Part shown: piece by piece, positions 27,970-58,942 of the stretch
Numbering within the stretch: the stretch's first letter is position 1
How the letters are laid out: each line of letters begins with the position of its first letter
Assembly: GCA_016765135.1 (NCBI GenBank)
Contig: JAESQN010000031.1
Location: 62,001-126,000 of the forward strand
Direction of reading: 5' to 3'
DNA from: Robiginitomaculum sp.
Lineage (GTDB): Bacteria > Pseudomonadota > Alphaproteobacteria > Caulobacterales > Maricaulaceae
Length of the DNA stretch: 64,000 nt
Notes under the pieces: generated by a model
What the model was told of the DNA's origin: nothing
Seen by the model: the letters and a program-made list of their open reading frames with translations, nothing else
Database searches by the model: none
Position numbers and translations under genes: made by a program

Positions 27970-27974
27970 GGAGG
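27970..27974 (+). promoter_or_regulatory. Ribosome-binding site deciding the wbpD GTG start
   Basis: GGAGG six bases before the GTG at 27981. No similarly placed site supports the upstream ATG at 27945. Confidence 0.7.
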
Positions 27975-27980
27975 GGCACT

Positions 27981-39626: not shown

Positions 39627-40537
39627 GAGTATTATTGACAGGGGCAGCCGGGTTTATAGGCAAGCAGATTGCTCGTAGCCTACAAAATAGTTGGGCGGTT
39701 TATGCAGTTGTGCGCGATAGTAACACCCTCTCCGCGAAACAGCTCGCCGGGTATTCTACACTTATCGAAGATGACATCTCACAGGGCCTTACACGTGAAA
39801 GGTATCCCACAAAAATAGATGCCGTCATTCATTGTGCGCAATCTTTGGCTTATCAAACTTTTCCGGCAAACGCTCTGGATGTTTCCAATGTTAATGTAGC
39901 GGCCACGGCTCACCTTCTTGATTATGGGCTTAAGGCAGGGGCAACGTCATTTTGCCATATATCAAGCGGTTCGGTTTATGAGCCTTATGATCAAACATTA
40001 CACGAAGGCAGTGTTTTGACACCTAGTTCAATAAATGGATGCTCAAAAGCCGCCGCGGAAATGTTGGTCAGGAGCTATGCCTCGCTCATGAAAACTTGCT
40101 CTTTACGGGTTTTCATGCCCTACGGCCCCGGCCAAACCAACAGATTGTTACCGAACCTTATCCATAAAGTTCTTATGGGCGAAACCATTACTTTGGCCCA
40201 AGGCCGAGGCCCTGTTATTGCCCCTATTCATGTTGAGGATGTTGCAAACATCATCAGTTCTGCTTGTCAGGACCAATGGCAGGGGGTCGTGAATATCGCT
40301 GGCATGGAAACCATGCCTCTTTCGGACGTGGTTACGAGCATTGCAAAAACCTTAAGACAAGATTTAAACATCAAGACCACCAGCGAAGCGTCAATCAACC
40401 TGACCCCCCCCTTGGATATTTTGAAATCCAAAATACCAACAGTCGGTTTCATTGATTTTAAAACTGGGTTATCCGAAACAATCAGCGCATATCTCTCTGA
40501 AGGAACTAACGATATAAACCCATTTAGATCAACATGA
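39623..40537 (+). CDS. NAD-epimerase-like protein lacking the catalytic tyrosine
   Basis: A 304-residue extended short-chain dehydrogenase-like protein. It has a clear Rossmann motif (VLLTGAAGFIGKQIA) and an HISSGSVYEPY strand, but where the family has Y-x-x-x-K it reads N-G-C-S-K (SSINGCSKAAAE), so the catalytic Tyr is replaced by Asn. It may be a binding or regulatory protein or use another acid/base. It overlaps asnB by 4 bases and the following glycosyltransferase-like gene by 4 bases, so it is kept in the operon. Confidence 0.75.
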   Translation: MRVLLTGAAGFIGKQIARSLQNSWAVYAVVRDSNTLSAKQLAGYSTLIEDDISQGLTRERYPTKIDAVIHCAQSLAYQTFPANALDVSNVNVAATAHLLDYGLKAGATSFCHISSGSVYEPYDQTLHEGSVLTPSSINGCSKAAAEMLVRSYASLMKTCSLRVFMPYGPGQTNRLLPNLIHKVLMGETITLAQGRGPVIAPIHVEDVANIISSACQDQWQGVVNIAGMETMPLSDVVTSIAKTLRQDLNIKTTSEASINLTPPLDILKSKIPTVGFIDFKTGLSETISAYLSEGTNDINPFRST

Positions 40538-42453
40538 GTTACACAAAAAACATTCTTGTTCTCTCTTCAATGTATCATTATACACATATGAGCCAAATGA
40601 TAGATTATTTGGCTGCCTATAAAACATACTCGCGGCATAATTATTTCTTCCATAATTTTATCTATGAATTTGACCCTAAAACGATAGATTTTGACCGTTT
40701 CGATGTTGTGATGCTGCCCCACAATTTTTGGCCAATGAATTTAAATGAAGAACAAAGAGCCGCATTGGCCGCAACCAAAGCTTTAAAAGCGTTGTTTTTA
40801 CAAGATGAATATCAGGAAGTTCGAAATATCAACAAGGTTATGGACGAAATGGGTATTGACCTTATGTTCACTTGCGTTGCAGAAAAAGATTTTGATGTTT
40901 TTTATCCCAAGAAACGGATCAAAAGCCTACAGGCTGTATACGGCGTTCTCACGGGTTACGTTTCAGACGCAATGATGGCTCCAGACATGCTACAATTGGA
41001 AAACAAAACAATTGATGTCGGTTTTCGCTCTCGCGTATCTCCTGATTTTTTAGGTAAGCTGGGTTATGAAAAATTACGGATCGCGGAAAAGTTTGGGGCA
41101 TTTGCAACAGAGCAAGGCCTAAGCACCAATATTTCAGTCAACGAAGACGACCGGCTGTCAGGGCATCGCTGGACCGAATTTTTACAGAGCTGTAAAACCC
41201 AATTAGGCACGCCTAGCGGCTCAAGTGTGATTGATTTTGATGGTAAGCTGATGAAAACATCAACGTCCTATCGGCGAGCCTTTCCCCACGTGCCGTTCCA
41301 TGAAGTCTTTGACGCTAATCTGGCCAGATATGATGGGAAATACGGCATAGATACAGTTTCACCGCGAACCTTCGAGTGTGCCGCAACTGGTACAGCCATG
41401 GTGCAACTTGAGGGGTATTGTGGCGGTATATTGACGCCCGGAAAGCATTATATTGAGATTAAGGCTGACTATTCGAATATGGGTGACGTGGTCGAGCAAA
41501 TCAAAGACACCCGCCATTGCCAAACAATTGCAAAACAAGCCCATGCCGATTTAATCGCAAGTAATAAATACAATTTCCGCACCCATGTTGAAAAAATTGA
41601 TGACATTTTTGATTATCACTTACCCAATGCGAAAGCCCGTTCTACATTTCTTGATCCGAAAGCTTTTTATAACCAGATAATATGGCGACACGATCAAAGC
41701 TTTACAATGGGCGACGGCGGTCTGATTTATCTCAATACTTTCAAAGCCGAAAAGTTACAAGAAGCAGAACAGCAAAATACCAAATTACGAAAAGTTCCAA
41801 TTATTGGCAAGATGGTAAACCGAACTGGCGGAGAACCTATCAAGAAAGTAGCCAAGGGAAAGGCCGCGCTTCAATTGGTCAGGACGTTCCCTGTCTTTCG
41901 CTCTTTATTTTTGCGCGCAATTATGTCTGGAAAGAATGGGCCCAGACTGGAAGTTATTTTAAAGGATATTTTACTGCTCGGCATCATAAAATCGGTACAA
42001 AGCGGGTTGAATCTTTCTGGTACAGGTTTTGGTGCTAGGTTGCAGCTTGAAGATGAAAAGATCGTGCTCATTGGCGACCCCAAATTTAGCCTACAGGAAC
42101 CGGATGAAGCATTTTTCGAAAAAAGAAACCCTGGCGACAAGGTGCCACGAAAGGATGTTCGTGAGCAATTGAACGAATATTTACAATATGAAAACGGGCA
42201 AATTGTTGTGGATCTAGCGTCCGTGTTTCCGCTTGCAGTTTTTGCCAGCAGCATTATCTTCTATTGGCCGCTGGAAGCAAGGCCAGATAGCTTTCGCTCC
42301 AACGCTGATCTATATTACCACTTGCCTGGGTTTACGCAAATATCAAAATCATTCCCCTTACTCTCCAAACAGGTGATAAATGAGGCACTTACACCAGCCT
42401 CGGCTTCCGAATTGAACGCTTTAACGTTAATTTTTGAAAATAAGAAAGAATGA
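40534..42453 (+). CDS. Glycosyltransferase-like protein, paralogue family member A
   Basis: A 639-residue protein. Its first ~350 residues share an ordered motif set with the products at 44712-46370 and 57650-58942: LFLQDEYQ, AVYGVLTGYVSD, HRWTEFLQSC, GTPSGSSVIDFDGKL, VSPRTFECAATGT and DYSNMGDVVEQ. The SPR-x-x-E segment resembles the donor-site loop of GT-B enzymes. The C-terminal ~290 residues are unique to this member and match nothing recognised. No signal peptide or membrane helix is clear. It overlaps the upstream epimerase-like gene by 4 bases. Function is unknown; a glycosyltransferase role is inferred. Confidence 0.65.
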   Translation: MSYTKNILVLSSMYHYTHMSQMIDYLAAYKTYSRHNYFFHNFIYEFDPKTIDFDRFDVVMLPHNFWPMNLNEEQRAALAATKALKALFLQDEYQEVRNINKVMDEMGIDLMFTCVAEKDFDVFYPKKRIKSLQAVYGVLTGYVSDAMMAPDMLQLENKTIDVGFRSRVSPDFLGKLGYEKLRIAEKFGAFATEQGLSTNISVNEDDRLSGHRWTEFLQSCKTQLGTPSGSSVIDFDGKLMKTSTSYRRAFPHVPFHEVFDANLARYDGKYGIDTVSPRTFECAATGTAMVQLEGYCGGILTPGKHYIEIKADYSNMGDVVEQIKDTRHCQTIAKQAHADLIASNKYNFRTHVEKIDDIFDYHLPNAKARSTFLDPKAFYNQIIWRHDQSFTMGDGGLIYLNTFKAEKLQEAEQQNTKLRKVPIIGKMVNRTGGEPIKKVAKGKAALQLVRTFPVFRSLFLRAIMSGKNGPRLEVILKDILLLGIIKSVQSGLNLSGTGFGARLQLEDEKIVLIGDPKFSLQEPDEAFFEKRNPGDKVPRKDVREQLNEYLQYENGQIVVDLASVFPLAVFASSIIFYWPLEARPDSFRSNADLYYHLPGFTQISKSFPLLSKQVINEALTPASASELNALTLIFENKKE

Positions 42454-42484
42454 TGACCGCCAACTTTCTTAAAGTCCCCGAGGC

Positions 42485-43591
42485 CTACTCAGACTGGACC
42501 AAGGTCACAAGGGCATCTAGGTATTGAAAGACAACCGTCAAGGCCTCTTCATTGCCCAATTCATATGCACGCAAAAATGTAGCAATTCCAGTGGCATAAA
42601 AGGGCCCGCCAATCAAAGACGAAACATGCAAATAGGCAAGATTCATTGTCGCCGTCACATGGCCGGATGCGCTAGCATTTTCGTACCAAAGTACGGCACC
42701 CTCAAGATCCACCTCTCCACCAAGCCCTGTCTGTAAAAGGGCCGCGTAATGGTGCTGTGCGCCCAAATGTCCCATTTCTCCAGCCTTTCGATAATACTTT
42801 CTGGCATCTGCCATGTTAATTTCACACCCAATACCTAGCTGGTAATAAGTTCCTAGCGTAAAAATACTTTCTATATTTCCTAGTTTAGCGGCCAGACAGT
42901 GCTTCTCAAAGGCGGCTTGGTGCTTGCCTTGATTATAGAGTTCTACAGCGCTTTGAAATAAAGTTTGCATCTCATGGGTTTTCTTTTTTGAACTTCGAAC
43001 CCGGTTCAAAATCCGATGCGTTATCGGTCGGGCTTTCAGGCTTTCGTTTACAAATACCAATGGAGCTGTATAATCAGGGGCCAACTCTGTCAAACGCTCT
43101 TGAATCGTATTCAGAACATCTTCTTTCGCGCCCAGATATTGCAATGTTTTCGAGAGTTCAATATAAATATCCTGCACGGGCTGTGACAAGGGTCCAAATC
43201 GTTCGCGGGATCTGGATATTACTTCCTTATATCCTTGAATCACTTCATTTTTGTCAGCTGACATCTTGAGAAGCCTCAAAATTAGCAAGTCAACTTTCAG
43301 TATGATCTCTGGGCTAGATTTTTCACTGTTCTTGACAACCTCTAGACATTCTCTAATTTTGTCTGCTTCGTCTGTTAGGGATTGCTCGTTACAATATTGA
43401 ACGAAATCCTCAAAAATGGCTAGGTCTTCGTCAGTGAATAAAAACTCTCCCGTTTTCAGAGAGTTGGAAATCACTGCCACGGGTCTTCTTAATGCCTTTT
43501 TATAGGCCGCCAGGGCCTGCTCAGGAATTGCTAGAGCCGAGCAAACTTTGGCCAAGTTATGATGGAGGTATGTTTGGTCGATCGTCAGCAT
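42485..43591 (-). CDS. Sel1/TPR-repeat protein
   Basis: A 368-residue helical-repeat protein. The C-terminal part (about residues 210-330) holds three Sel1-like repeats, with YNQGKHQAAFEKHCLAAKLG, DARKYYRKAGEMGHLGAQHH and AVLWYENASASGHVTATMNL. The N-terminal part is TPR-like (EQALAAYKKALRRP near residue 25). There is no signal peptide, so it is probably cytoplasmic and acts by protein binding. It lies convergent with member A (32 bases apart) and divergent from the unknown gene at 43774, as an isolated minus-strand gene in a plus-strand locus. Confidence 0.8.
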   Translation of the reverse strand: MLTIDQTYLHHNLAKVCSALAIPEQALAAYKKALRRPVAVISNSLKTGEFLFTDEDLAIFEDFVQYCNEQSLTDEADKIRECLEVVKNSEKSSPEIILKVDLLILRLLKMSADKNEVIQGYKEVISRSRERFGPLSQPVQDIYIELSKTLQYLGAKEDVLNTIQERLTELAPDYTAPLVFVNESLKARPITHRILNRVRSSKKKTHEMQTLFQSAVELYNQGKHQAAFEKHCLAAKLGNIESIFTLGTYYQLGIGCEINMADARKYYRKAGEMGHLGAQHHYAALLQTGLGGEVDLEGAVLWYENASASGHVTATMNLAYLHVSSLIGGPFYATGIATFLRAYELGNEEALTVVFQYLDALVTLVQSE

Positions 43592-43773
43592 TATTGCTAT
43601 CCTAAACTAGAAATGGCTTGTAGACATTGTTTTCCAATGTACTATAATACTATCTTTATTACAATGAAAGAAAGGGTAATCCTCTAAGATAAGGGAATGC
43701 AGATCAGCGCTGATTCTCGAAAATAACTATATTCTTGATAGCCATGCAATTCGAAAGACACTTGTTTTAAGAG

Positions 43774-44715
43774 ATGAATACACAGACACAAAAACACCCA
43801 TCCTTGGCCGTTCGCCGATTTAGTGGCAGCGTTGGTGCTCATGCCATGGATGATGATATTTCCAAAAAATATGAACGGAGTGCTTATAATTATATTCAAG
43901 TATCCCTCAAGGATAAGGACTATAAGGACGCTGATCCGGGCATTCTTGCATTACATTTGCAACAATTCTCTCTCTATAATATTGGCATTAAAAGTTGGGA
44001 GGAAACGGCAGAAATCCTTTTAATCGTTGCAGGTTATGTACGAGAGATGAAGCATAATTATACGCACCCTATTTGGCTGGCAATGTACAGACACGTAAAA
44101 AACGCTCCTGACGCGCAATCCGCTGGAGCTTTTATAAGCAAGGGCATCTTGAAAAAATCGATCGAGCACAAAGATTGGAACAAACTTCCAGACACACTTA
44201 AGTTTGAAGGTTTGATATTTGCTAGTAAAATGGAGGGTGTACTTCCGTCCAGATTTGCATCCGTAAAAACCTTTCGTTCATTTTTTAAATCCTCTAAAGT
44301 CGCCTGCGGTTGTTTACTTGCCGTCTGCGCTGAATTTATGCACGCTGGGCGCCGCAAAGATTTGCAGCACTGTGTTGACTTGCTTAAACAAATGAACCCG
44401 GGCTTGTTTGATCTTGATGATATCTCAGTTAGCGGGTTTCTATTTGCGGTTTCTAGGTTTCGGCGAAGCTTACACAATCAAAACTCTGAGTTTGAACAAA
44501 GCAGGAAGGTGCTCACCAAAACGTGGGGAAAGGCAATTTTATTGCCAATGCAACCTGAGGGGAGGAAGGCTCGCTTTGAGGCGATCAAGTTTCTGTACCA
44601 AGAACGTTTGCAAAATGCCGCTTTGCTTCAGGACGAGCAAGCTAAAATACAAGCACATAACAACTGGAAATCATACTTGCTAAAACAGATTGACACACAT
44701 GGGAAGCGCGCATGA
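43774..44715 (+). CDS. Unrecognised protein upstream of glycosyltransferase-like member B
   Basis: A 313-residue protein of no family I recognise. It is mostly helical with no signal peptide or membrane helix. A Cys-rich hydrophobic stretch lies near residue 178 (KVACGCLLAVCAEFMHAG), and the C-terminus is charged. It overlaps the start of the next gene by 4 bases (ATGA), so it is probably translated together with member B. Length and helix content hint at a repeat-type scaffold, like the Sel1 protein next door, but this is not supported by a clear repeat. Confidence 0.6.
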   Translation: MNTQTQKHPSLAVRRFSGSVGAHAMDDDISKKYERSAYNYIQVSLKDKDYKDADPGILALHLQQFSLYNIGIKSWEETAEILLIVAGYVREMKHNYTHPIWLAMYRHVKNAPDAQSAGAFISKGILKKSIEHKDWNKLPDTLKFEGLIFASKMEGVLPSRFASVKTFRSFFKSSKVACGCLLAVCAEFMHAGRRKDLQHCVDLLKQMNPGLFDLDDISVSGFLFAVSRFRRSLHNQNSEFEQSRKVLTKTWGKAILLPMQPEGRKARFEAIKFLYQERLQNAALLQDEQAKIQAHNNWKSYLLKQIDTHGKRA

Positions 44716-46370
44716 CCAAGGTAATTTTGATTTTACATGATTTATCCGTTGGTTCTCGGCGAACCAATCGCGACCATGTCTATAATTTTTCCAAATATCA
44801 AAAGGGGAATTTATATATTTTCCATTGCGCCCGCGCACCTATAACAGACGAATTAAAACAAATAGATTTTGACGGGGTCATTATAAATTATTGTTTTTTG
44901 GGAAATAGGGCTGGTGGCCATTACCACCAGTACAAGAAAGGTTTTGCTTGGATACGAGATTTAAATTGCCCAAAAATAGCTCTGTGTCAGGATGATTATA
45001 CTGACAATGAAATTCTGGATGAGTGGCTCGACTATATGAACATAACCACGATTTACAGCCCTATACAGGAAAATGTAAATATTCTATACCCGATAAATTG
45101 GGGCCGGAAAACATTTAAACTTGGCCTTACCGCATATACCGATAGCGTAGAAATGGATGAGTTACAGCGCTATGCCACCCCGTACAAGAAACGAAAATTT
45201 GATGTCGGAACTCGGGTTCGGTACTTACCGCCTCAATTTGGTCGCTATGGACGCATCAAAGGTGAAACCGCGGAAGACTTTCGTGATGCAGCGGATGTTG
45301 CTGGTTTCTTAACGAATATCTCTACGGATCCACAAGATGTTATTTTTGGAAGCCATTGGTTAAAGTTTGTCGGGAATTGTAGGTTTACCTTAGGATCTAA
45401 AGGTGGCTCCAGCCTATGTGACCCACGTGGGGATATCCGTAAAGACATTTCAGAATATATGGTAAAAAACCCAGATGCGGGATTCACAGAAGTGGAGAAG
45501 ATGTGCTTCCCGGATCTGGATAATCGCTATATTTTTGCTGGTGTAAGCCCACGCCTGTTTGAAGCTGCAGCGTTAAAGACCTGTCAGATATTGATACGGG
45601 ACGAGTATGTTGGTGGTCTTGAGGAATATGTTGATTATATTCCGTTAGATGAAGATTTATCGAACCTTGAAGAAGTGTTTGAACTGATGCGTGATGACGA
45701 TAAATGCATGGCAATGACCGAAAGCTGTTACCAAAAACTCATCGCCAGCAAACAATTTGATTATGGATATTTCGTAGACGATGTTTTATCTCAAATTCCA
45801 GAAAAAAAGAAATCCTTGCCCTTGAAAACCATCAAATTGGTTGAGGCGCATTTCGAACAACTTAAGCCATACAGCCAATTGCGGAAAAAGTGTGGTGGAT
45901 TCACCGAACAATTATGGCGCCGTGTTCTTTATTTTTCAGAGTTCTCCGATGTATTAGATTATGCCGGATCCGTGTCTGAGCTTCCCGATGGCTTGTCCAT
46001 ATGCCCATCAGCAGCCGACCATTTGATGGATTTACCAATGTCCACCCACACCCTTTGTCAAGTTAGTGAAGTGCTGTCCTACGCAAAGTTTTTTGGCGCA
46101 GGTACCTCAGAAATGAAGCATATTCTGAAATTAATTGTTGTAGAGCGACATAATGAAGGACAATGGGCCTTTTGGTGGGATATGTGTGAATATATCTATG
46201 AACCCCTAACCGTATTGGCCAAGCCTGTTGTTAGACAAAAGCCCAGGGTTCAGAAGCGTACCAAGAAATCTGCAATTACAAAACCAGTGATGAATACGAG
46301 GACGAAAAAAAAACGTGCGACCACTAAGGTTTCAGTGAAAACAACAACATCTAAAAGCGTACGCACATGA
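44712..46370 (+). CDS. Glycosyltransferase-like protein, paralogue family member B
   Basis: A 552-residue protein with the same ordered motifs as members A and C: IALCQDDYTD (near residue 90), LGLTAYTDS, HWLKFVGNCRFTLG, GGSSLCDPRGDIRKD, FTEVEKMCFPD, VSPRLFEAAALKTCQIL and YIPLDEDLSNLEEVFE. The C-terminal ~45 residues are a strongly basic Lys/Thr-rich tail, similar to DNA- or polyanion-binding tails, absent from A and C. Both neighbours overlap it by 4 bases. A GT-B-like sugar transferase is the best guess; no activity is known. Confidence 0.65.
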   Translation: MTKVILILHDLSVGSRRTNRDHVYNFSKYQKGNLYIFHCARAPITDELKQIDFDGVIINYCFLGNRAGGHYHQYKKGFAWIRDLNCPKIALCQDDYTDNEILDEWLDYMNITTIYSPIQENVNILYPINWGRKTFKLGLTAYTDSVEMDELQRYATPYKKRKFDVGTRVRYLPPQFGRYGRIKGETAEDFRDAADVAGFLTNISTDPQDVIFGSHWLKFVGNCRFTLGSKGGSSLCDPRGDIRKDISEYMVKNPDAGFTEVEKMCFPDLDNRYIFAGVSPRLFEAAALKTCQILIRDEYVGGLEEYVDYIPLDEDLSNLEEVFELMRDDDKCMAMTESCYQKLIASKQFDYGYFVDDVLSQIPEKKKSLPLKTIKLVEAHFEQLKPYSQLRKKCGGFTEQLWRRVLYFSEFSDVLDYAGSVSELPDGLSICPSAADHLMDLPMSTHTLCQVSEVLSYAKFFGAGTSEMKHILKLIVVERHNEGQWAFWWDMCEYIYEPLTVLAKPVVRQKPRVQKRTKKSAITKPVMNTRTKKKRATTKVSVKTTTSKSVRT

Positions 46371-47038
46371 ACCTGTGTGCAATCCATCAACCCAACTTTT
46401 TTCCGTGGCTCGGATATTTTGATAAAATATCACGTGCCGATATATTTGTATTCATGGATGATGTCGATTACCCCAAAAGTGGTAGCGGCGGCATGGGTTC
46501 ATGGTCAAACCGAGTAAAAATAAATGTACACGGCAATGCCCAATGGCTTGGATGCCCTGTGAACAAAAAAACCGGCAACAACAAAATTAAAGATGTACTC
46601 ATAAGCAATGATCCAAAATGGCGGAAAAAAGCACTAAAAACACTACAGATGAATTATGCAAAGTCCGAAAATTTTCCACAGGCTATGGATATATTAGAAC
46701 CCCTCATCCTGAACCCGACCAGTTCATTATCCGCATATAACACTCATGCGATTATTAAAATTTCCGAAGCGCTTGGTTTGCACACAAAATTTGTTTGGCA
46801 ATCGCGATTGGGCACCTCGCATGCTAGTACGGATGTGTTGATAGAAATTTGTAAAGCGGTAGATGCAAATCAATATTTAGCTGGCAGCGGGGCAGGTGGC
46901 TATCAGGATGACGATAAAATTCGAGCATCAGGAATTGAACTAATCTATCAAAATTTCAAGCCCGAACCATATGGCGAAACCAAATCCTATGTTGCGGGAT
47001 TGTCTGTTATTGACTATCTCATGCACCAAAGATTTTAA
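46367..47038 (+). CDS. WbqC-family protein
   Basis: A 223-residue protein of the WbqC family, found in O-antigen and glycan loci. Hallmarks are the N-terminal CAIHQPNFFPWLGYFDKISR, FVFMDDVDYPKSG and WSNRVKI, and later YLAGSGAGGYQDDDKI. The family has been linked to sugar-modification steps (for example in Vibrio, Pseudomonas and Escherichia O-antigen clusters), but the reaction is not settled. It overlaps member B by 4 bases and precedes the cysteine-cluster glycosyltransferase. Confidence 0.82.
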   Translation: MNLCAIHQPNFFPWLGYFDKISRADIFVFMDDVDYPKSGSGGMGSWSNRVKINVHGNAQWLGCPVNKKTGNNKIKDVLISNDPKWRKKALKTLQMNYAKSENFPQAMDILEPLILNPTSSLSAYNTHAIIKISEALGLHTKFVWQSRLGTSHASTDVLIEICKAVDANQYLAGSGAGGYQDDDKIRASGIELIYQNFKPEPYGETKSYVAGLSVIDYLMHQRF

Positions 47039-47077
47039 TTTTTGTGGTTTGCCGCCATTATTCAAGGAACATCACTC

Positions 47078-48601
47078 ATGGACGAAAAGACAATACCTGA
47101 CTTAAAACCGAGGCATGAAGACATAGACATTATGCGCGGAGGGTTAGAAAAACCATGGTTACTCCCCAACCTTGCCCATAGGTATGCAGAAAAATACTTT
47201 CCTGATATTTCTCTCCCCCCCTATGAACACTTAAACTTACCAATGACCGAAGCTCAACTCAAAAAACGCTGGGCCAGTCTAGTCGCAGAAGACAAAGAAA
47301 AAGCAACGAGACAATTGCAAGGGTCTCGCCTGAATAAAAAACAAAACAGCTCATTTCAATCTCCCTTTGGGAAACCATTGAGCGAGATAATGCGCCCAAA
47401 AAGCAAGGTGCGCGGTTCGGTAGTGTTTATCCACCATTCTTATTATCATTTCTATTATCTCGCCAGCGCACTGCGGGATCGGGGTTGGAATGCATGGTGC
47501 ATTTCCCTTGAGGATCCAGAGGGTGGAAACGCGCCATATTACCATGGAGAAGATTTGAATTTATGGCATGAGGAGTCAGCTACTCGCCATGGACTTCAGC
47601 AAGAATTGTTTGAGGCGGTGTATGAGCATTTTGACATGATCCACTTTCATGGAGATTCAAAATTTTCGATTTTTGATAAAACTCTTTGTTACAACAATGA
47701 AAGGGATGGGATTGGTTGGGATTTTTTGGAATTGAAAGCCCGCGGTGTAAAAATCGGTCATTCCATAAGTGGTTGCCTGACGGGGCAACGGAAAAGCGTA
47801 TTTAACAAAGTTAGTCGTGGGGTTTGTAATAAATGTGTCTGGCAAAACCGACCGGATGTTTGCTCTGAAGCGGCCCAGTACCAGTCGGGAGAACGCATCA
47901 AACTGATCTGTGATCTCAACGCACTGGAAGTAGATTGGCCCGGCGATGTATCCCGGCGCACAAAAAACTGTTTCTACGACCCTCTGACCTATTGTTTCAA
48001 TGAGCAGCTTTGGAACCCTGACATTGAAATTCCCAAGCATATCGAGCGTTTTAAACGAAAGCCTGGCGAACTTTTGGTTTTCCATGCAGTTGGCAATTTA
48101 AAAGACCGACAATCCCAAACTAAAAACATTAAAGGTACACCTGCCGTTTTGGCCGCTATGAAGCGTTTGAAAAAGGAAGGGCATAAAGTCAAGCTGATCT
48201 TTAAAACCGGGGTACTTTCTAAAGATATGCGGTTTTATCAGATACAAGCAGATATTATTGTCGATCAGATCAATTATGGTCGTTACGGGGCGACCGCGCG
48301 GGAAACTATGGCACTTGGCGTGCCAACAATTTGCCATATAAACCCTGAACAGCCTGACGGTATCAAACCTTCATTGGCATTAAATGAGTGCCCGTTGGTC
48401 GATGCCACTGAAGAGACGATATATGACGTGTTAAAAGATTTGGTGGCTAACCCTGAAAAACGCAAAAAAGCGGGAGAAGCCGGGCGTGCTTATGCCATGA
48501 AATGGCATTCGTCAGCTGCCTGCGCCGAGCGCTTCGAACGCGTGTATGACAGAATGATGGCAAGTAAATACCCGTTGGATGTTGATGAAGTTTATGAATA
48601 G
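47078..48601 (+). CDS. Glycosyltransferase with a four-cysteine insert
   Basis: A 507-residue protein with a GT-B-like second half: FHAVGNLKDRQSQTKNIKGT, VKLIFKTGVL and a donor-site loop YGATARETMALGVPTICH. Near residues 240-270 it has a cluster of four cysteines spaced C-x16-C-x2-C-x8-C (SGC, GVC, NKC, DVC), which looks like a metal-binding or disulphide site and is not standard for GT4. The ATG at 47078 is preferred because an AAGGAAC site precedes it. It ends one base before the next gene starts. Confidence 0.72.
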   Translation: MDEKTIPDLKPRHEDIDIMRGGLEKPWLLPNLAHRYAEKYFPDISLPPYEHLNLPMTEAQLKKRWASLVAEDKEKATRQLQGSRLNKKQNSSFQSPFGKPLSEIMRPKSKVRGSVVFIHHSYYHFYYLASALRDRGWNAWCISLEDPEGGNAPYYHGEDLNLWHEESATRHGLQQELFEAVYEHFDMIHFHGDSKFSIFDKTLCYNNERDGIGWDFLELKARGVKIGHSISGCLTGQRKSVFNKVSRGVCNKCVWQNRPDVCSEAAQYQSGERIKLICDLNALEVDWPGDVSRRTKNCFYDPLTYCFNEQLWNPDIEIPKHIERFKRKPGELLVFHAVGNLKDRQSQTKNIKGTPAVLAAMKRLKKEGHKVKLIFKTGVLSKDMRFYQIQADIIVDQINYGRYGATARETMALGVPTICHINPEQPDGIKPSLALNECPLVDATEETIYDVLKDLVANPEKRKKAGEAGRAYAMKWHSSAACAERFERVYDRMMASKYPLDVDEVYE

Positions 48602-49714: not shown

Positions 49715-49732
49715 GCTTGAAACAAGAGCCAG

Positions 49733-51154
49733 TTAACGGATATTATCCCTGCCAGAACGCGCTAAATGATCATCATAAGTCTTCATGATATTTTGCGCCT
49801 CCAACAGTACCGCACGTTCAATTCGCTGACGCGGCGGCATAGCGGTGGGTGTCCACCATTCAGGGTGAACAAGTACATGTAATTGCTCATGCTCTACGCT
49901 GGCAATGACTTCGGGAATTGGCTTATGACGCCAATAACCGTTGGAATCTGAACAATACCCATACTCGTCCCGGAGTGTCTTGCCGTAGCAATTGACCATG
50001 CCCGCCATTATGTCTTTATCAAAGGCAATGAAATTACCACAAGTCGGGTCATGATAACTTACGGCCTCAATTGGTGCGTCAAGGCTTTGGGACAACAAAT
50101 CCCGCTCTTTGGCCATGGTGTCTTCAAGTTCAGCTTCACTCCACTGGTCTTTCTCATAAGCGGCGGCATCAAAGTGCAACCCGGCACTATGGCCCATTTT
50201 TAAAATTTCGCGGGCGATTTTTTGGGTGTCATGCTCCAAAATATTGTAATAAGGGAGGCGGAGCGTAAACATATAGCTCGCCTTGATCCCCAAATTATGC
50301 TCGATTTCAGCAATGCGGTAAGCTTGATGGATTGAATGGTCAAGATCATGCCGCAAAATCAGATGCCGCCCAGTACGACCTTCAAGATAGCTGGCAAATT
50401 TATAATCTTTTTTTGCCTGGAACAGCATATGGCGATATTTGTTTTCGGTAAAGTCTGCCCAACGTTTTTGATCTCTGCTGTGCACATCCGTCACAGGCGT
50501 AGGCCCTTCATATCCAAACCGGTGTCCGCTCAGGTCCAGATAGGCGTTATTATGGCCGGGAGCTGCCACAGAAGCTAGTCGCGAACCGATTGCAGATGAA
50601 CCGTCCAACGGCGAAATGCGACAAAAACTCTTGAAATCCAACCGGGTCGTTTTTCGTGTTCCCCATTGTTGACCAGTGGGTAAAACAGGTTCGCCGGATG
50701 CCAATTTTCCAACCAGACTTCCAAACAGAACCACCCCGGACTTTTCGGCCATGTTTATATAGTCCTGCGGTGTCGATCCGGCTGGAACTTTATATGTTTC
50801 TACATCAACAATTTGGCCAGCATCTACTTTACTCGTCATGATATGGGCAGTTGCGCCATAGGTCTTTATTTGATCAAAATGGGCAAAATGATGCGGGTCT
50901 CTACCAGGGTATTCGGGCGTTGCCGGATGAATATTATAGGCATTTCCAGCGAGTGAGTTTATGATTTTTTCTGGAACTATTACACCAGTGGCAAAACTAA
51001 CCAGTGTAAACGCGGCATCCTGTTGATCAATTGTTTTGAAAAATTGTATAAGGTCATTTTTCGTAAAAATAGCCGTTGAATCAATATTTGATGCTGCAGT
51101 TATTTTGCAAAGCTGATCTGCCCAGCCAAGGTTGGTCAACAAAATAATCTTCAT
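49733..51154 (-). CDS. Formyltransferase / polysaccharide-deacetylase-like fusion
   Basis: A 473-residue two-domain protein. The N-terminal part (about 1-170) resembles formyltransferases that use 10-formyl-tetrahydrofolate: the N-x-H motif in YNIHPATPEYPGRDP (Asn74, His76) and the Asp in SKVDAGQIVD (Asp111). The C-terminal part (about 265-460) resembles NodB-type deacetylases, with HLILRHDLDHS, a GLHFDAAAY motif and VSYHDPTCGNF. The joined architecture suggests a bifunctional sugar-N-modifying enzyme, for example deacetylating then formylating an amino sugar. It converges on the LhgO-like gene with 18 bases between. Confidence 0.72.
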   Translation of the reverse strand: MKIILLTNLGWADQLCKITAASNIDSTAIFTKNDLIQFFKTIDQQDAAFTLVSFATGVIVPEKIINSLAGNAYNIHPATPEYPGRDPHHFAHFDQIKTYGATAHIMTSKVDAGQIVDVETYKVPAGSTPQDYINMAEKSGVVLFGSLVGKLASGEPVLPTGQQWGTRKTTRLDFKSFCRISPLDGSSAIGSRLASVAAPGHNNAYLDLSGHRFGYEGPTPVTDVHSRDQKRWADFTENKYRHMLFQAKKDYKFASYLEGRTGRHLILRHDLDHSIHQAYRIAEIEHNLGIKASYMFTLRLPYYNILEHDTQKIAREILKMGHSAGLHFDAAAYEKDQWSEAELEDTMAKERDLLSQSLDAPIEAVSYHDPTCGNFIAFDKDIMAGMVNCYGKTLRDEYGYCSDSNGYWRHKPIPEVIASVEHEQLHVLVHPEWWTPTAMPPRQRIERAVLLEAQNIMKTYDDHLARSGRDNIR

Positions 51155-52520: not shown

Positions 52521-52696
52521 AAAGCATCCAATTCGTTGCACCAACAATTTATACCTAGTTCTAGGAACTTAAATATACACATCAATAAATACGGACTACT
52601 ATGCTGCTAATTTCACACACTAACCATACTAAAAAACATCTTAAGTATACATACCTCACACAAAGTAGCCAACAATAAAGTAGGTGTTGCTTAATT

Positions 52697-53853
52697 TGTA
52701 TAAGCTCAGATAGATGTGAGATTTTTATGGTTTGCTTTATTTAAGCTGCTTCCGCCATAATGGGTTTGTAACAACAACCAAATTGGAGGAAGCAGCTATG
52801 CAGATCAAATATCTACACCCTAATATCTATAAACTATACGCCTGGGCGCGTACACAAGAATGTTTGGACGCCTATAGGCGCAAATATGAGGACGTTGTAC
52901 GCCAGTGGCGATCCTTGAAAGCCGAGGGAGTTAGTGACCAAAAATGTGCGCAGTTCGTCGGTATATCCCGTGCCACATACTATCGGTACAAGAAAGTATT
53001 GGACAAGCTTGCGCGCGGGATTACACCGCCGTCAAAGCGCCCTCGCAGGCTCAATAAACCCCTGTGGGGCGAAACCGAAAAGCAACTTGTACAAGAGGCA
53101 GGCTACGCACTCTTGCGTATTCGCAGAGCAAACCAAACATGGGGTAAGAGCAAAATCGCTGTCGTTCTGCGCCGTGACCACGGCCAGACTATGAGCGAGA
53201 GCACCGTTGGGCGGATACTCAGGGTTCTGCTTGCTAAAGGTATAATCACCAAGTCACGCTCAGCCCCAAGGGCGAAGAGGAAGATAAACTTTAGGAAATC
53301 CCACGCAAAACGCTGGGTTTATAAGGCCTATAAGAACATGAAAATGGGCGAACGGGTGCAGATCGACCACGTGACAGTGACCAAGAACGGCATCACCGTA
53401 AAGCACTTCCAGGCATGGGAGCGAAAATCCAAATTCATTCACGCTCAAGTCTACTCTCACGCCAAAGCATCTTCCGCCAAGCGGCTCCTTGTTGAGTTAC
53501 TCACCACTGCACCGTTCAAAATCAAATCCATACAGGTGGACGGCGGTTCGGAATTCATGGCCGAATTCGAGCAGGTATGCGAAGATTTGAACATACCGCT
53601 CATAGTTCTGCCACCGAGCAGGCCAACGTATAACGGCGGGGTCGAGCGCGGAAACAGAACCTTCAAGGAAGAGCTTTATTACCGCCGAGACCTCTTGGCA
53701 GACAGCACCGGAGCTATGCGCTTCGAGCTGAGAAAAGCGGTGCACAAGTACAACACATACCGCCCACATTACGCTCTTGCCGGATTAACACCAATGGCAT
53801 ATATCAAAAATACCCAAAAGGCGGATGAGTCTCAAAATACCTGAACCTATACA
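52697..53853 (+). mobile_element. IS481-like insertion sequence, apparently intact
   Basis: A 1157-base element with imperfect terminal inverted repeats: left TGTATAAGCTCAGATA and right, inverted, TGTATAGGTTCAGGTA (3 differences in 16). It is flanked by AATT on both sides (52693-52696 and 53854-53857), a probable target duplication, though AATT is palindromic. It encodes one full transposase. It sits between the methyltransferase gene and an IS1595-type relic. Confidence 0.85.
52798..53844 (+). CDS. IS481-like transposase
   Basis: A 348-residue transposase with a retroviral-integrase-like core. The N-terminal helix-turn-helix includes KCAQFVGISRATYYRYKK. The DDE triad can be read: Asp in GERVQIDHVTVT, Asp in IQVDGGSEFMAEF, and, 35 residues later, Glu in NGGVERGNRTFKEEL. 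The start at 52798 follows a TTGGAGGAAG site; the frame is open for 22 codons upstream, into the element's left end. The stop falls inside the right inverted repeat, as is common in compact ISs. It appears intact. Confidence 0.88.
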   Translation: MQIKYLHPNIYKLYAWARTQECLDAYRRKYEDVVRQWRSLKAEGVSDQKCAQFVGISRATYYRYKKVLDKLARGITPPSKRPRRLNKPLWGETEKQLVQEAGYALLRIRRANQTWGKSKIAVVLRRDHGQTMSESTVGRILRVLLAKGIITKSRSAPRAKRKINFRKSHAKRWVYKAYKNMKMGERVQIDHVTVTKNGITVKHFQAWERKSKFIHAQVYSHAKASSAKRLLVELLTTAPFKIKSIQVDGGSEFMAEFEQVCEDLNIPLIVLPPSRPTYNGGVERGNRTFKEELYYRRDLLADSTGAMRFELRKAVHKYNTYRPHYALAGLTPMAYIKNTQKADESQNT

Positions 53854-53984
53854 AATTTAACATTCGGGGTTGCGCTAGAAAGCTAGGTCAAATACCCTTA
53901 CGCAGTGTCGTTGGGTAAAAACGACCCAAAATGGGCTTTGGTACACCATTAGATTTGCAGTCCAAAACCACTTCCTCGCTTCGC

Positions 53985-54270
53985 TCAGGGCGCGCATATA
54001 ACGCTTTGCTCGGTTCCAAAAATTTTCAATCCCGTTGATGTGATTATGTCTTTCTACAAACAACTCTGAATGATTAATCCAAAAAAAGTGAAAGTCAGAA
54101 ACATCAAGCGCATTATAACCACGCCGACCATCCGTATACACGATACTATCGGGCACAACCTTTTACCCAATGATTGGCTGCAAAGTCCTGGAAGAGGCGC
54201 CCGGAATGACCTTGGTATTAGTCTCCCTACCACCACGCTTTAGTCGTTCCAGCAACAAAATGCTCTATTA
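53985..54270 (-). pseudogene. IS1595-type (ISXO2-like) transposase fragment
   Basis: The minus strand encodes a C-terminal transposase fragment: VVPDSIVYTDGRRGYNALDV, INHSELFVERHNHINGIENF and NRAKRYMRAL. These match the ISXO2-like catalytic domain. Upstream in the same frame KRGGRETNTKVIPG continues it but is interrupted by a stop near 54165. The start of the gene and its final part are missing, and no terminal repeats were found. It lies beside the IS481-like element, so this spot has taken more than one insertion. Confidence 0.82.
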
Positions 54271-54369
54271 AACATTCCTGTTTACATCGGCCAATTCTGC
54301 TCTTTCTCATACTTGTCTTCTATAATACACCTTATGCTTTATCTGGGGCAACCTTAATGTTCATAGGAG

Positions 54370-55170
54370 TTATAGAGACAATAACGGCAAGTCATGGCTG
54401 GCCAGGACTTCGTTAATGTCTTCTTTGCGTAATATTCTATTTTTAATATCCAGGGCCTGCGGCACATCGGTAAGCGCAATTTGTCGTCCCTCATGCAATA
54501 CCAGCACAATATTACACCAGCGTTTGATAAGTGCGTCTACATGGGTTGCCAAAACGAGTATATGTTCTTCATGGAACATGCCCTCAATACGTTCTTGCGC
54601 CTTGTCAACGAACCGCGCATCGCCTGCACCAATCCACTCGTCTAAGATATAAATTTGCGAGGACATGCTTGTCACAATCGCAAACCCAAGACGTGCGCTC
54701 ATACCTGAGGAATATGTTCTCACAGGCAAATCTATATCCGAGCCAAGGTCGGCAAATTCGAGAATTGTAGGCAAATAACGGTCAATTTGTTTTTCCGTGA
54801 GCCCAGCCTGGCGTCCACGGCGGTAAATATTTTGATAGCCGGTGCGTTCAGGATCCATGCCAGTGCCGGCCGCAATTAGCCCAGCAACCTTTCCGATTCT
54901 AACAACCTTGCCAACCTCTGGCTCATATATGCCCAACAACACATTTATCAAAGTTGATTTACCCGCCCCATTTGCGCCGATTATGCCAAGGCGGTCGCCC
55001 GAACGAAGGGTAAAATTTATATTTTGCAAAGCCACTTTATGTTGGCGTTTTGAACGTTTCTTAAAACGCAACATTTCGCCAACTTTATTCTTGAAAGAAC
55101 GGGTTTCAGAAATAAAGAGGGGAAAAACCACTTTAACATTCGTCACAGACAGGCGGGAGGTAATTTTCAT
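54370..55170 (-). CDS. wzt: Wzt-like polysaccharide ABC transporter ATPase
   Basis: A 266-residue ABC ATPase. It has Walker A GANGAGKST, the signature YSSGMSARLGF and Walker B IYILDEW with the acidic residues, plus a switch His in LATHVDAL. The length leaves no room for the C-terminal carbohydrate-binding domain of classical Wzt, so export is probably not governed by that end-cap recognition. The partner permease Wzm lies immediately upstream (2-base gap). The pair exports a lipid-linked O-antigen or capsule-type glycan across the inner membrane. Confidence 0.88.
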   Translation of the reverse strand: MKITSRLSVTNVKVVFPLFISETRSFKNKVGEMLRFKKRSKRQHKVALQNINFTLRSGDRLGIIGANGAGKSTLINVLLGIYEPEVGKVVRIGKVAGLIAAGTGMDPERTGYQNIYRRGRQAGLTEKQIDRYLPTILEFADLGSDIDLPVRTYSSGMSARLGFAIVTSMSSQIYILDEWIGAGDARFVDKAQERIEGMFHEEHILVLATHVDALIKRWCNIVLVLHEGRQIALTDVPQALDIKNRILRKEDINEVLASHDLPLLSL

Positions 55171-55172
55171 AA

Positions 55173-56057
55173 TTATGACCAGTATATGATCCGGCGACGG
55201 AATTTGACAAACACAAGAATAGCAAAGATCCAGACAACCATCGCCAGACCCATAACAACGAAATAATGCATGAGTTTCGGCGTACCGCCCAATAGAGGCG
55301 TTCGCATTAACTCCAAAAAATAATAAAACGGGTTTAAATCCAAAATTAAGTGCGGCTTACCTTGTGGTATATCCGCTGCTCGCCAAAAAACCGGGCTTAA
55401 ATAAAACCCGAACTGCAAAAAATTTGAAACGGCATGAGGTAAGTCTTTTAAACGGGCACCAAAAACACCCAATATTATCCCGCCCGGAACAAGCACAAGC
55501 ATAACAAGGACGACACCGGGAATAAACAGGAAAATTTGCCAATGAAAGCCGACAAACAAAAAGGACACGCCGAGAACAACAGGCGCGCTAAACAACAGCA
55601 CCACAAAGCTTCGAGCAACCAGCCGTACAGGAATTTCTGCGAAAGACAAATGGAAACCTGTACTCGCAGCGGTAGGAGAGCCGTACATTGCCCCGCCCTC
55701 GGCCAGGGTCGAGTATATGAATGTCCAAAAAACGACACCACAAGCCACATATACAATATAAGTTGGATCCGTGATTTTAAACAAAAATTTACCCAAAATC
55801 ATAAAGCCGGTTACAAAAACCAGCGTCCCTGCCACATTCCACAACGGGCCCAGGAACGAACGGCGATAGCGCGATAAAACATCATCAGCCCCCTCGCGGA
55901 GTATCGCACCAAACCTGGTAAACACCGTCGCTACATCCGCCAGGGTCGAAGCCATTGGATTAGCCGCATCCGTAATAAATATTTCGCGTTTGGCAATTGC
56001 CTTCCTGCGCAAGGCCCTTTTCTCCAGTTTGGTTAATTTATGGTCAGAAACAAACAA
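55173..56057 (-). CDS. wzm: Wzm-like polysaccharide ABC transporter permease
   Basis: A 294-residue permease of the ABC-2 type. The polar N-terminus (about residues 1-55, rich in Arg and Lys) is followed by six membrane helices between about 65 and 285. The motif SRYRRSFLGPLWNV just before helix 1 is typical of Wzm and KpsM proteins. It carries the glycan through the membrane with the Wzt-like ATPase. It is preceded, after 89 bases, by the glycosyltransferase gene at 56147-57649, so the four genes read as one operon. Confidence 0.88.
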   Translation of the reverse strand: MFVSDHKLTKLEKRALRRKAIAKREIFITDAANPMASTLADVATVFTRFGAILREGADDVLSRYRRSFLGPLWNVAGTLVFVTGFMILGKFLFKITDPTYIVYVACGVVFWTFIYSTLAEGGAMYGSPTAASTGFHLSFAEIPVRLVARSFVVLLFSAPVVLGVSFLFVGFHWQIFLFIPGVVLVMLVLVPGGIILGVFGARLKDLPHAVSNFLQFGFYLSPVFWRAADIPQGKPHLILDLNPFYYFLELMRTPLLGGTPKLMHYFVVMGLAMVVWIFAILVFVKFRRRIIYWS

Positions 56058-56146
56058 GGCAGGCTCCTTTAAATCGGCAACTAAACTTCCGAGTGGAAAG
56101 CTCGTTAGTTACCCTGTTTCGTCCATAACTGACAAGGAGGAAATTA

Positions 56147-57649
56147 TTATTTTTCATAGATATCCAGGAGTATGTGGGCAAAATGTCCATAATTATATTC
56201 ATTCAGCGCATAGTTACGTCCGGCTTTACCATGGACGGCTATTTTGGCCGGGGATGCAAGCAATAATGACAATGCCCTGCCAAAATCTCCGGCCTTCTTG
56301 TCATCATAAATAACCCCGCAGCTGGCCAGTTCAATAATGCTTTCAACATTGGGTAAAGGCGTGCTGATGATGGCTAAACCCGCCAACATATATTGTGAAA
56401 GTTTATTCGGGCATGCGCCGGCGTGATTTTCCACATATGAATGATAAGGAATAATACCTATGTCTGCGGTGCTCGCATATGCAATAAGCTTGTCTTCGCC
56501 TATACTGTCAAGAAAATATATGGACTGGTTTAAAAGCCCCGTACCGTGAGCATGATTGATCAACTGCTTCCGAAATACATTGTTGGGGCCCCTGATAAAC
56601 AGGGCCGCATTTTTCGGGTTGAGCTTTGCCCACTCGTCTATCACCCACTCCACCCCCCTGTGCTTCGCAAACCCGCCTTGAAACAGGACGGAAACCCGAC
56701 CCTGGGCCAGTTTTTTTATGTCAGATTTTTTCGGGACTTCAAACTCTCCGTCTTTGCGGGGTGAGGCATTTGGCAGAACCAGGAAATCAAGGCGCGGGAA
56801 CCGGGCGTTAAATTTCTCCGCCAACCCGGGCGACACTGTAACGGCGGCGTCCACATGCTTAAACAACATCCGCTCCAAGGCAAAAAACAAATAGCGGGGC
56901 CTGGGCCAAAGTAAATATGCATCCGGACCATACTCATGGGCATCATATATAAGCCGGCAGCCGTATTTTGCTTTTAGCAAACTGGCTGCAAGCAGGCTAT
57001 CCGGATCGTGGGCATGAATGATGTCTGGTATATATCCGTTTTGTTCAACATCAAAAAGCACACAAGCCGCAAACCCGGCCATGTGATCTCGAAAATACCA
57101 ACGGTAGCCGCGCAACGCCTCGATCAGGGGGCGAAACCTGCCGCCCGACACAAACCGCCATATATTTCTGGGGATTTGTTTAATTTTCAAGACCAGTGTT
57201 TGTAAATAGCGACGATAATATAAGGCACTATAATTCAGCACGGCCTGGCCTTTTGGCAAATGCCGGACACTTAAATATACCGCCCTAAGGCCGCGCACCA
57301 AAATCTTAAAACCCAAAAAAACCAGTATGAATGGCAGGCTAATTAAAAAAGGAAGTGTCCAGATTGCCAGATCTCTGCCGCGCGGAACAATGCCGGAACC
57401 CAGCATAAGCATGAGGATATTGCGGAGCTTCAAGGACGGATGTTCAGGTGTAAAAATATTTTCGGGTATATTTGGTTTTGGGCCTTTGTGCTTTATCTGC
57501 CCTTTGGCTACATGAGAAAACCCCATCACGCGCACATCATAACCGTTTTCTTTACCAAAATTGGCACTCCAGCCTATTCTGGGGTCAAGGGAGGGTTGGT
57601 GACAACATAAGACCAAAAGCCGTTTTTTATTTTTGGCCGGACTTGTCAT
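56147..57649 (-). CDS. GT4-type glycosyltransferase with membrane-embedding insert
   Basis: A 500-residue GT-B enzyme. The N-terminus reads RLLVLCCHQPSLDPRIGWSANF, DIIHAHDPDSLLAASLL and YDAHEYGPDAYLL, and the donor half has VSVLFQGGFAKHRGVEW and CPNKLSQYMLAGLAIISTPLPN. A hydrophobic stretch (about residues 98-127) between the Rossmann halves may bind the membrane or mark an insert. It is one base before the next upstream gene's stop region, so translation with member C is likely. Donor and acceptor sugars cannot be assigned. Confidence 0.83.
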   Translation of the reverse strand: MTSPAKNKKRLLVLCCHQPSLDPRIGWSANFGKENGYDVRVMGFSHVAKGQIKHKGPKPNIPENIFTPEHPSLKLRNILMLMLGSGIVPRGRDLAIWTLPFLISLPFILVFLGFKILVRGLRAVYLSVRHLPKGQAVLNYSALYYRRYLQTLVLKIKQIPRNIWRFVSGGRFRPLIEALRGYRWYFRDHMAGFAACVLFDVEQNGYIPDIIHAHDPDSLLAASLLKAKYGCRLIYDAHEYGPDAYLLWPRPRYLFFALERMLFKHVDAAVTVSPGLAEKFNARFPRLDFLVLPNASPRKDGEFEVPKKSDIKKLAQGRVSVLFQGGFAKHRGVEWVIDEWAKLNPKNAALFIRGPNNVFRKQLINHAHGTGLLNQSIYFLDSIGEDKLIAYASTADIGIIPYHSYVENHAGACPNKLSQYMLAGLAIISTPLPNVESIIELASCGVIYDDKKAGDFGRALSLLLASPAKIAVHGKAGRNYALNEYNYGHFAHILLDIYEK

Positions 57650-58942
57650 CTAGCCGCGCTCGAAAAAACGGTAAACCGGCCTTGCCAGTATTGCCAAAAA
57701 GCGGTAGCGCGGCGGGTTTTTAAGATATGCCACTTCTGCTTGGATAATTCGCCAGTTAAACCAGTCCTTAAAATTCAAAACTCTGCGCTTGAACAGATCT
57801 TTTACGGGGGCTGGTTTTGCCTCCAGAGCGTCGATGCAAAATTTTTCTATGCCGCCGACGAACCCGCGGTAAGTGAATTTCTTTGTCTCGATAATGTCTG
57901 CATAAGACCGGTCCACCATGGTTTGCACACGTTCATCGTCCAGAAGAGCTTCGAAAACCGCATCCAAATTCGTATAATCAGGTGCCACAGGAATATAATG
58001 CTGCCAGGGGCGCAAAACCCCGTTATAATGTCCCTCAATTAAAATCTGGCAAGTCTTGGTTGCGGCGGCTTCCAGATGGCGCGGCGACAATGCCCTTAAG
58101 TCCAGCGAGCCTTCTTGCGACATAAAGCAGGCCGCCTGAACCTCCTCAAAGCTCGCATTTTTGTGTGTTTCCAGATAATTTTCGACTTTTTCCTTTAACC
58201 GCCCGTCCCGGTCAATGATCGAGGCTCCGCCCTCAACCCCGACAACGGCCCGACTATTGGCCAAAAATTTAAGCCAGTCCATGCCTGATATTGTATCGGC
58301 GTCATTGAGCGAAATATCGACCGCCAGGTTTCTTTCGCGGGCCTCTTTTTGAAAAACCTCTCCAATGCGTACTTTTTGAATGCCGTGTTCCCCGAGCCAA
58401 TAGGCGGCCCGCCAGGCCCGGTAGCTGATCATCCACTTACGCTGTGCCAACGGTTTATGAAAAGACTGGATGCGGCGCAGAACCTTTTCGTCAATATACC
58501 CCGTGAGCACGGTTTTATATTTGACCGTATTGCGCTTCACATTTTTGTAAATAATCGGCCACTGGCTCTCGTCTGCACAGCTCAGGACAATATCAACATT
58601 GAAATCATCGATAATTTTGGACAACATATCCGTGTGGATAAATTCGTCCTGGGGCATGGCAATTTTCAAGGCCGGGTATGTGCCGATCTCGCGCACAATA
58701 GCCGTGAATTTATTAAATACATCCCGCCCCCAGCGCATGCCGCAAAAACTTGTATGAAAGACAATTACGTCAAAAGACATGCTGCGGATAGTGTCCCACG
58801 GCCAGCCAAGGGCAATATTGATATAAACGACCCGGTGTTTTGAATAACGCTTTAAGGCGTATAAGTGCGTTTCAATGGTGCTGCGCAAAGGATAAACACC
58901 GCGTGTGTAATACACAACCAGAATGGTTTTTCTTGATCGCAT
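57650..58942 (-). CDS. Glycosyltransferase-like protein, paralogue family member C
   Basis: A 430-residue protein sharing ordered motifs with members A and B: IAMPQDEFIH, TVLTGYIDEK, DWLKFLANSRAVVG, EGGASIIDRDGRLKE, FEEVQAACFM, LSPRHLEAAATKTCQIL and DYTNLDAVFEAL. It is the smallest member and so defines the family core. The start at 58942 (MRSRKTILVV) is chosen over a codon 11 residues upstream. It is directly followed by the GT4 gene at 56147-57649. A glycosyltransferase role is inferred. Confidence 0.68.
   Translation of the reverse strand: MRSRKTILVVYYTRGVYPLRSTIETHLYALKRYSKHRVVYINIALGWPWDTIRSMSFDVIVFHTSFCGMRWGRDVFNKFTAIVREIGTYPALKIAMPQDEFIHTDMLSKIIDDFNVDIVLSCADESQWPIIYKNVKRNTVKYKTVLTGYIDEKVLRRIQSFHKPLAQRKWMISYRAWRAAYWLGEHGIQKVRIGEVFQKEARERNLAVDISLNDADTISGMDWLKFLANSRAVVGVEGGASIIDRDGRLKEKVENYLETHKNASFEEVQAACFMSQEGSLDLRALSPRHLEAAATKTCQILIEGHYNGVLRPWQHYIPVAPDYTNLDAVFEALLDDERVQTMVDRSYADIIETKKFTYRGFVGGIEKFCIDALEAKPAPVKDLFKRRVLNFKDWFNWRIIQAEVAYLKNPPRYRFLAILARPVYRFFERG

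Follow-up and report, generated by a model that had tools for sequence, protein, structure and literature searches.

The stretch analysed here, called the window, is a 64,000-nucleotide segment of the Robiginitomaculum sp. contig JAESQN010000031.1 (assembly GCA_016765135.1). It contains a polysaccharide region with genes for a Wzm/Wzt-type exporter, for an AsnB-like amidotransferase and for several short-chain dehydrogenase/reductase-type (SDR) proteins. Our subject is three open reading frames (ORFs) of that region, named A, B and C (Table 1). An earlier note on this DNA had proposed that they encode three divergent, glycosyltransferase-like relatives. We found the ORFs at the positions it gave, with C on the minus strand, a detail that it omitted. 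The three products are homologous, far above chance: BLASTP aligns A with B over 278 residues (111 bits, E 5e-30), A with C over 370 residues (170 bits, E 5e-51) and B with C over 348 residues (172 bits, E 1e-52), each pair at 30% identity, and the top score of C shuffled 500 times against A and B was 32.7 bits. The shared motifs occur in the proposed order in all three proteins, but their wording must be amended, as A has Arg instead of His or Asp ahead of W-x-E-F-L, and the end of B reads DLSN and not DY[ST]N. The best explanation is that A, B and C each represent an ancient subfamily within a single GT-B glycosyltransferase family, unnamed in Pfam and NCBIfam and distantly linked to GT90 and to CgeB-like Glyco_trans_1_2 proteins.

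Past the common core the proteins differ, as had been remarked, with 282 residues in A, 193 in B and 63 in C. The tail of B is basic, its final 52 residues containing 18 Lys or Arg and 10 Thr. The C-terminal part of A matches no Pfam family at E ≤ 0.01, and in a model of the whole protein the core is good and this part is not confident, mostly with pLDDT below 50. Relatives of it are present in 3 of 41 genomes, its own included. No fourth copy of the family was detected in the genome itself at E ≤ 0.01, so that exactly three are present. No Pfam or NCBIfam model reaches its cut-off for A, B or C, and NCBIfam gives zero matches at E ≤ 0.1; within these two collections, the earlier impression that no described family can be recognised is therefore correct.

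The note had also called for a search for the GT-B fold. We modelled C with AlphaFold2, using the alignment of 67 family members described below as input, and obtained a mean pLDDT of 94.8 and a pTM of 0.92. C is predicted to have a GT-B fold with two Rossmann-like domains, the matches to GT-B enzymes in both Foldseek and VIA-align spanning residues 2-375 of the model. The best Foldseek match was PimB' (3oka, E 3.1e-9), with BshA and HepE also matched, at TM-scores of about 0.5. VIA-align matched T4 AGT (1y6f, Z 20.1, root-mean-square deviation 3.6, 307 aligned residues), BshA (3mbo, Z 18.9) and T4 BGT (1j39, Z 18.2). Among viral models (BFVD), the best fold match was a CgeB-like protein (1.8e-11), and several others bear the same name. 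The second-ranking match, with a low TM-score of 0.33, is named lipopolysaccharide-modifying enzyme, which we take to be a name for GT90/CAP10 proteins. No GT90 structure is present among the best 50 matches of either PDB fold comparison, which is uninformative either way. We predict a transferase role for the family with high confidence.

The family reaches beyond this locus. Scanning GTDB species contigs with two peptide patterns from A, B and C yielded relatives in 45 loci of many phyla, with flanks of varying length; because of the origin of the patterns, this sample leans towards A-, B- or C-like members. According to the core profile, 28 loci have one copy, ten have two and seven have three. 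Together with the window, these loci provided 72 family ORFs, 67 of which were aligned, five with short or weak matches being omitted from the alignment and the tree. In three loci (L023, L032 and L047), single ORFs fuse the family core with a GT4-type transferase domain. Among the kin of the window the distribution is patchy (4 of 41 genomes, its own counted), and in a sample of the phylum the family was found in 2 of 299 genomes, again counting its own. With C as the sole tblastn query, plasmids (72,556 records, E 1e-5) and phages (50,697 records, E 0.01) gave no match, and PHROGs returned weak matches only, of unknown function. All 67 aligned members keep Q98, D99, R175, W223, G239, D244, P287 and E291 in the numbering of C; 66 of them also have K190, and 64 have R288.

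The association of the family with AsnB homologues and the gene cassette built around them are what is new here. An AsnB homologue is found in 35 of the 45 family loci versus 2 of 13 control loci centred on Wzt (Fisher p 8e-5), these controls all coming from the class of the window and some being shortened by contig ends. The next gene downstream codes for AsnB for 16 of 58 family genes, compared with 10 of 361 among the remaining genes of these loci; upstream, the figures are 8 of 61 and 11 of 343. These adjacency counts are lower bounds, because our gene calling is crude and misses genes. In 17 of the 45 loci, distributed over eight named phyla, two or three of the SDR genes come after AsnB in the same orientation, a count that permits up to 1.7 kb between neighbours and hence possible intervening genes; three of these loci (L018, L022 and L026, the last from a Hyphobacterium strain) belong to kin of the window. 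In the control, where SDR homologues were counted singly, these too are rarer (1 to 2 of 13 loci versus 21 to 22 of 45). We found no description of the AsnB-SDR cassette among the open-licence papers listed by our searches on AsnB in such loci, nor any open-licence work joining AsnB, NAD-dependent epimerase, UDP-N-acetylglucosamine (UDP-GlcNAc) 2-epimerase and polysaccharide biosynthesis. We have moderate confidence in the tie of the family to AsnB chemistry.

At the locus itself, the window holds one AsnB and half a cassette, with SDR1 and a second AsnB just past its end. Going upstream from C, one meets in order a protein of no known family, WecB, SDR3 and SDR2, then SDR1 and the second AsnB. 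Both AsnB proteins keep MCGI, with the glutaminase Cys, and the PP-loop SGG[IV]DS, and both pass the general asparagine-synthase model. As for the SDR-type protein whose gene overlaps the start of A, it lacks a Y-x3-K at residues 112-190, unlike the four other SDR proteins inspected, and is perhaps not functional as an SDR. The protein of no known family adjoining C (59257-60573, minus strand, 438 amino acids) has no Pfam match at E ≤ 0.01 and no NCBIfam match at E ≤ 1e-5; by eye, the spacing of its Cys, His and Asp resembles that of a transglutaminase triad. A Pfam-recognised transglutaminase-like gene is located at 33432-34433. Another ORF, overlapping the start of B (43774-44715, plus strand, 313 amino acids), has no convincing Pfam family and no NCBIfam family. 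In the 473-residue product of 49733-51154 (minus strand), residues 57-136 are a formyltransferase stretch, and the C-terminal part, which is longer, is unnamed by Pfam. Within the polysaccharide region, an ORF at 52732-53844 (plus strand) reads as transposase- or integrase-like.

Table 1. Family members, candidate catalytic residues and surrounding features (window positions unless a locus is named).
Feature	Position	Strand	Remarks
Family member A, 639 aa	40534..42453	+	GT-B core ~residues 1-357, then 282-residue C-terminal part without Pfam family
Family member B, 552 aa	44712..46370	+	Core ~residues 1-359, then 193-residue tail with basic Lys/Thr end
Family member C, 430 aa	57650..58942	-	GT-B core, short helical tail; model pLDDT 94.8
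Asp91 of A, QD motif	40804..40806	+	Candidate catalytic base; Asp invariant, 67/67
Asp94 of B, QD motif	44991..44993	+	Candidate catalytic base; Asp invariant, 67/67
Asp99 of C, QD motif	58646..58648	-	Candidate catalytic base; Asp invariant, 67/67
Hexapeptide acyltransferase	27945..28556	+	Putative WbpD-like pathway place
Gfo/Idh/MocA oxidoreductase	28646..29605	+	Putatively WbpB-like
DegT aminotransferase	29647..30783	+	Putatively WbpE-like
Nucleotide-sugar dehydrogenase, WbpA/Ugd-like	30833..32164	+	TIGR03026 418.6 bits, cut-off 189.8 passed
SDR epimerase/dehydratase	36712..37701	+	Adjoins AsnB
AsnB-like glutamine-dependent amidotransferase	37722..39626	+	One gene upstream of A; MCGI with glutaminase Cys, SGGIDS as PP-loop
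SDR-type protein	39623..40537	+	Overlaps start of A
WbqC-family protein	46367..47038	+	Overlaps end of B; PF08889 3.1e-60
Another GT1-type transferase	47042..48601	+	Sub-threshold Pfam match; best-hit relatives in 9/45 family loci
Wzt-type polysaccharide ABC export ATPase	54370..55170	-	NF050108 6.2e-58, under cut-off
Wzm-type polysaccharide ABC export permease	55173..56057	-	NF050109 2.4e-41, under cut-off
GT4-type glycosyltransferase	56147..57649	-	Directly downstream of C
WecB-type UDP-GlcNAc 2-epimerase	60653..61714	-	TIGR00236 313.9 bits, cut-off 210.15 passed
SDR3 of cassette	61726..62811	-	
SDR2 of AsnB-SDR1-SDR2-SDR3 cassette	62811..63758	-	
Cassette at this locus	window 61726-63758 and L057 3-4707		
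Cassette loci	L008, L010, L013, L015, L017, L018, L022, L023, L025, L026, L030, L031, L035, L037, L041, L043, L044		

By sequence, the nearest characterised relative of the family is GT90, represented by POGLUT1, through a 44-column C-terminal motif alone. Via L-x-P-x-x-HYIP-x-x-D-x-SN, the profile of the family picks up POGLUT1 (1.6e-6) and POGLUT2 (5.7e-4), with Drosophila Rumi at no better than E 1. A profile of 14 bacterial GT90 proteins, taken from 16 GT90 loci (one of the 16 has internal stops), matches the same motif over 44 columns at 96.3% and E 1.9e-9. Reversing one of the two alignments brought the match down to 0.3-0.8%, and reversing both restored it to 95.9%, as expected if ordered residues are what match. 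Given the reversed values, the 0.2% for GT4 and the 0.1% for residues 1-300 of the family, the link to GT90 is real but local. Shared with POGLUT1/Rumi are thus the predicted GT-B fold, described for POGLUT1 in PMC5543122, and the motif L-x-P-x-x-HY-[IV]-P-x-x-D-x-S, the first 300 residues being what differs. Full GT90 membership is ruled out, as a single motif matches and the cut-off of PF05686 (Glyco_transf_90) is not reached: this model gives no match to A, B or C at E ≤ 1, and it matches 6 of the 67 members at E ≤ 0.1, with 0.0068 as the best value. We found nothing in the open-licence literature that combines GT90, bacteria and lipopolysaccharide.

PMC5543122 describes POGLUT1 as an inverting GT-B enzyme in which Asp133 serves as the base, with Arg218 and Arg279 at the phosphates, and PMC13084666 assigns to POGLUT2 an Asp base and three Arg residues on the diphosphate. 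By analogy, we propose that D99 is the base and that R175, K190 and R288 lie near the donor phosphates (C numbering). A nucleotide-sugar donor would be bound in the C-terminal domain by the invariant Arg of Y-R, the conserved Lys, the Arg of S-P-R, the Glu and the HYIP-x-x-D-x-SN loop. As in GT90, the reaction would be an inverting one, with the invariant Asp of Q-D-[ED] as its likely base, and the sugar would pass from the donor onto a growing lipid-linked surface glycan.

Alternatively, A, B and C could be ordinary divergent transferases of the GT4 or CgeB-like (Glyco_trans_1_2) type with a retaining mechanism, AsnB being merely common in polysaccharide loci. PF13524 (Glyco_trans_1_2) matches A (19 bits, E 0.0014) and B (12.2 bits, E 0.18) below its cut-off of 25 bits, and 33 of the 67 members at E ≤ 0.1, also sub-threshold. 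There is no such match for C. This likeness, together with the CgeB-like best fold matches in BFVD, favours the alternative, as do the retaining GT4 enzymes among the top PDB folds and the small AsnB control of 13 loci from one class. However, the PF13524 match misses the cut-off and covers only part of the C-terminal domain of the family. The likeness to GT4 enzymes (PimA, BshA, MshA) and to the T4 DNA glucosyltransferases, presumably GT72 and GT63, is in the overall GT-B fold (VIA-align Z 17-20), whereas identities are 8-15% among the matches listed. When the family profile was compared with 16 GT4 proteins encoded in these loci and in the window, no similarity was detected (hhalign, 0.2%). 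The E-x7-E motif is a GT4 signature, and its first Glu is missing: no member of the 67 has a Glu eight residues before E291, and six have one 6 to 10 residues before it. Plain GT4 membership is ruled out by the profile comparison and the absent Glu, and the 35 of 45 versus 2 of 13 loci with AsnB argue against a mere coincidence, making this alternative as a whole rather unlikely. A comparison with DUF3880-like transferases had also been suggested, but DUF3880 is absent both from the Pfam matches of A, B and C (E ≤ 1) and from the 16 families matched by the 67 members (E ≤ 0.1).

We favour the reading, with a probability of roughly 0.6, that these GT-B transferases build surface polysaccharide, are specialised by clade and often serve amidated amino sugars. 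Homology, fold, conservation, clades and gene association are established by computation; catalysis, donor, acceptor and the sequence of steps are deduced from them. Judging from the recurrence of an AsnB-like enzyme in family loci, amino sugars bearing an ammonia-derived group may serve many members as donor sugar or as acceptor, the group being most likely a uronamide. In PMC7468200, deletion of PGN_1234 (WbpS) causes loss of the amide and WbqG is cited as required for it; that paper places both in the TIGR03108 family. PMC12407052 describes a Bordetella locus that produces an oligosaccharide containing GalNAcAN and in which a putative AsnB is numbered between transferases. Compared by gene context, the Wbp/Vim and b-Cool loci, characterised by a WbpS-type AsnB and uronamide sugars, resemble ours in having an AsnB-like amidotransferase inside a polysaccharide locus, and the window additionally has WbpA-, WbpB-, WbpD- and WbpE-like genes, at the family level. 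In contrast, the portions of these sources available to us mention no SDR cassette.

Several observations weigh against the favoured reading. A Ugd-type nucleotide-sugar dehydrogenase is needed for a uronic acid; it is present in the window, but the retrieved flanks contain one for no more than 2 of the 45 family loci, and the uronamide reading is therefore weak outside the window. Both AsnB proteins of the locus are far under the cut-off of TIGR03108, the model for the XrtA amidotransferase (423.7 and 409.2 versus 816.9 bits). The likeness to GT90 amounts to one local motif, with no detectable similarity in the first 300 residues; we found no reported activity for any family member; and in six loci (L005, L006, L012, L017, L031 and L034) the copies placed on the tree come from a single clade. 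Our confidence in the uronamide as the type of sugar is low.

It is conceivable, though we consider it doubtful, that the product of the AsnB partner is an acetamidino (amidine) group or an amide other than a uronamide, the AsnB-SDR cassette leading to a sugar not yet described. The scarcity of Ugd homologues near the family genes would fit, and so would the cassettes themselves, which hold two or three SDR genes instead of Ugd. On the other hand, known amidine-forming PP-loop enzymes are of another, shorter type. The AsnB homologues named in the available text of PMC7468200 are tied to uronamides, which also counts against this idea. It is tempting to speculate further that the family is a separate GT-B family bridging GT90 and the CgeB-like proteins and dedicated to sugars modified with AsnB-derived ammonia, with an AsnB-SDR1-SDR2-SDR3 cassette that accompanies it through different phyla and would make an undescribed amidated sugar nucleotide; we regard this more far-reaching proposal as tentative.

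Specialisation by clade, as the favoured reading has it, is suggested by the phylogeny. In a quick tree of 74 rows, with SH-aLRT support only, B, A and C each fall in a starred group of their own, comprising 20, 22 and 23 rows, respectively. These numbers include a few duplicates, as some rows represent the same gene (the genomes labelled G007, G019 and G020 seem to be those of L004/L018, L022 and L026). One sister genome has orthologues of A, B and C, at 87%, 74% and 88% identity over the tree columns. The three separate clades imply that A, B and C are not recent duplicates, and their identities of about 30% likewise rule out a recent triplication. With loci placed as read from the drawn tree, members of the A and B clades occur together in L011, L025, L029, L032 and L036 and those of the A and C clades in L010, and L007, L014 and L020 also mix groups; L047 and L048 have one copy each on the tree. 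That A, B and C duplicate a single function, acting by dosage or as equivalent enzymes in polymerisation, is improbable: they share a core and the invariant residues, and same-clade copies co-occur elsewhere (L031 and L034, for example), but they are far closer to their sister-genome orthologues than to each other and belong to separate starred clades.

Since they belong to different clades, A, B and C most likely each form a different linkage in the same polysaccharide, which we infer to be exported by Wzm/Wzt. The clade pattern fits different roles for the three enzymes without proving them. The idea of a sugar-transferase family specialised for successive steps of one glycan thus stands in part: the predicted GT-B fold agrees with a glycosyltransferase-like family and the three deep clades fit different steps, but successive steps on the same glycan are not shown.

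The curated models that we searched miss these transferases and their relatives in other bacterial surface-glycan loci. Invariant residues, a confidently predicted fold and an AsnB/SDR partner, whose cassette is found in eight named phyla, make testable enzymes of three anonymous ORFs, and the association between the family and AsnB points to a recurring amidated amino sugar.

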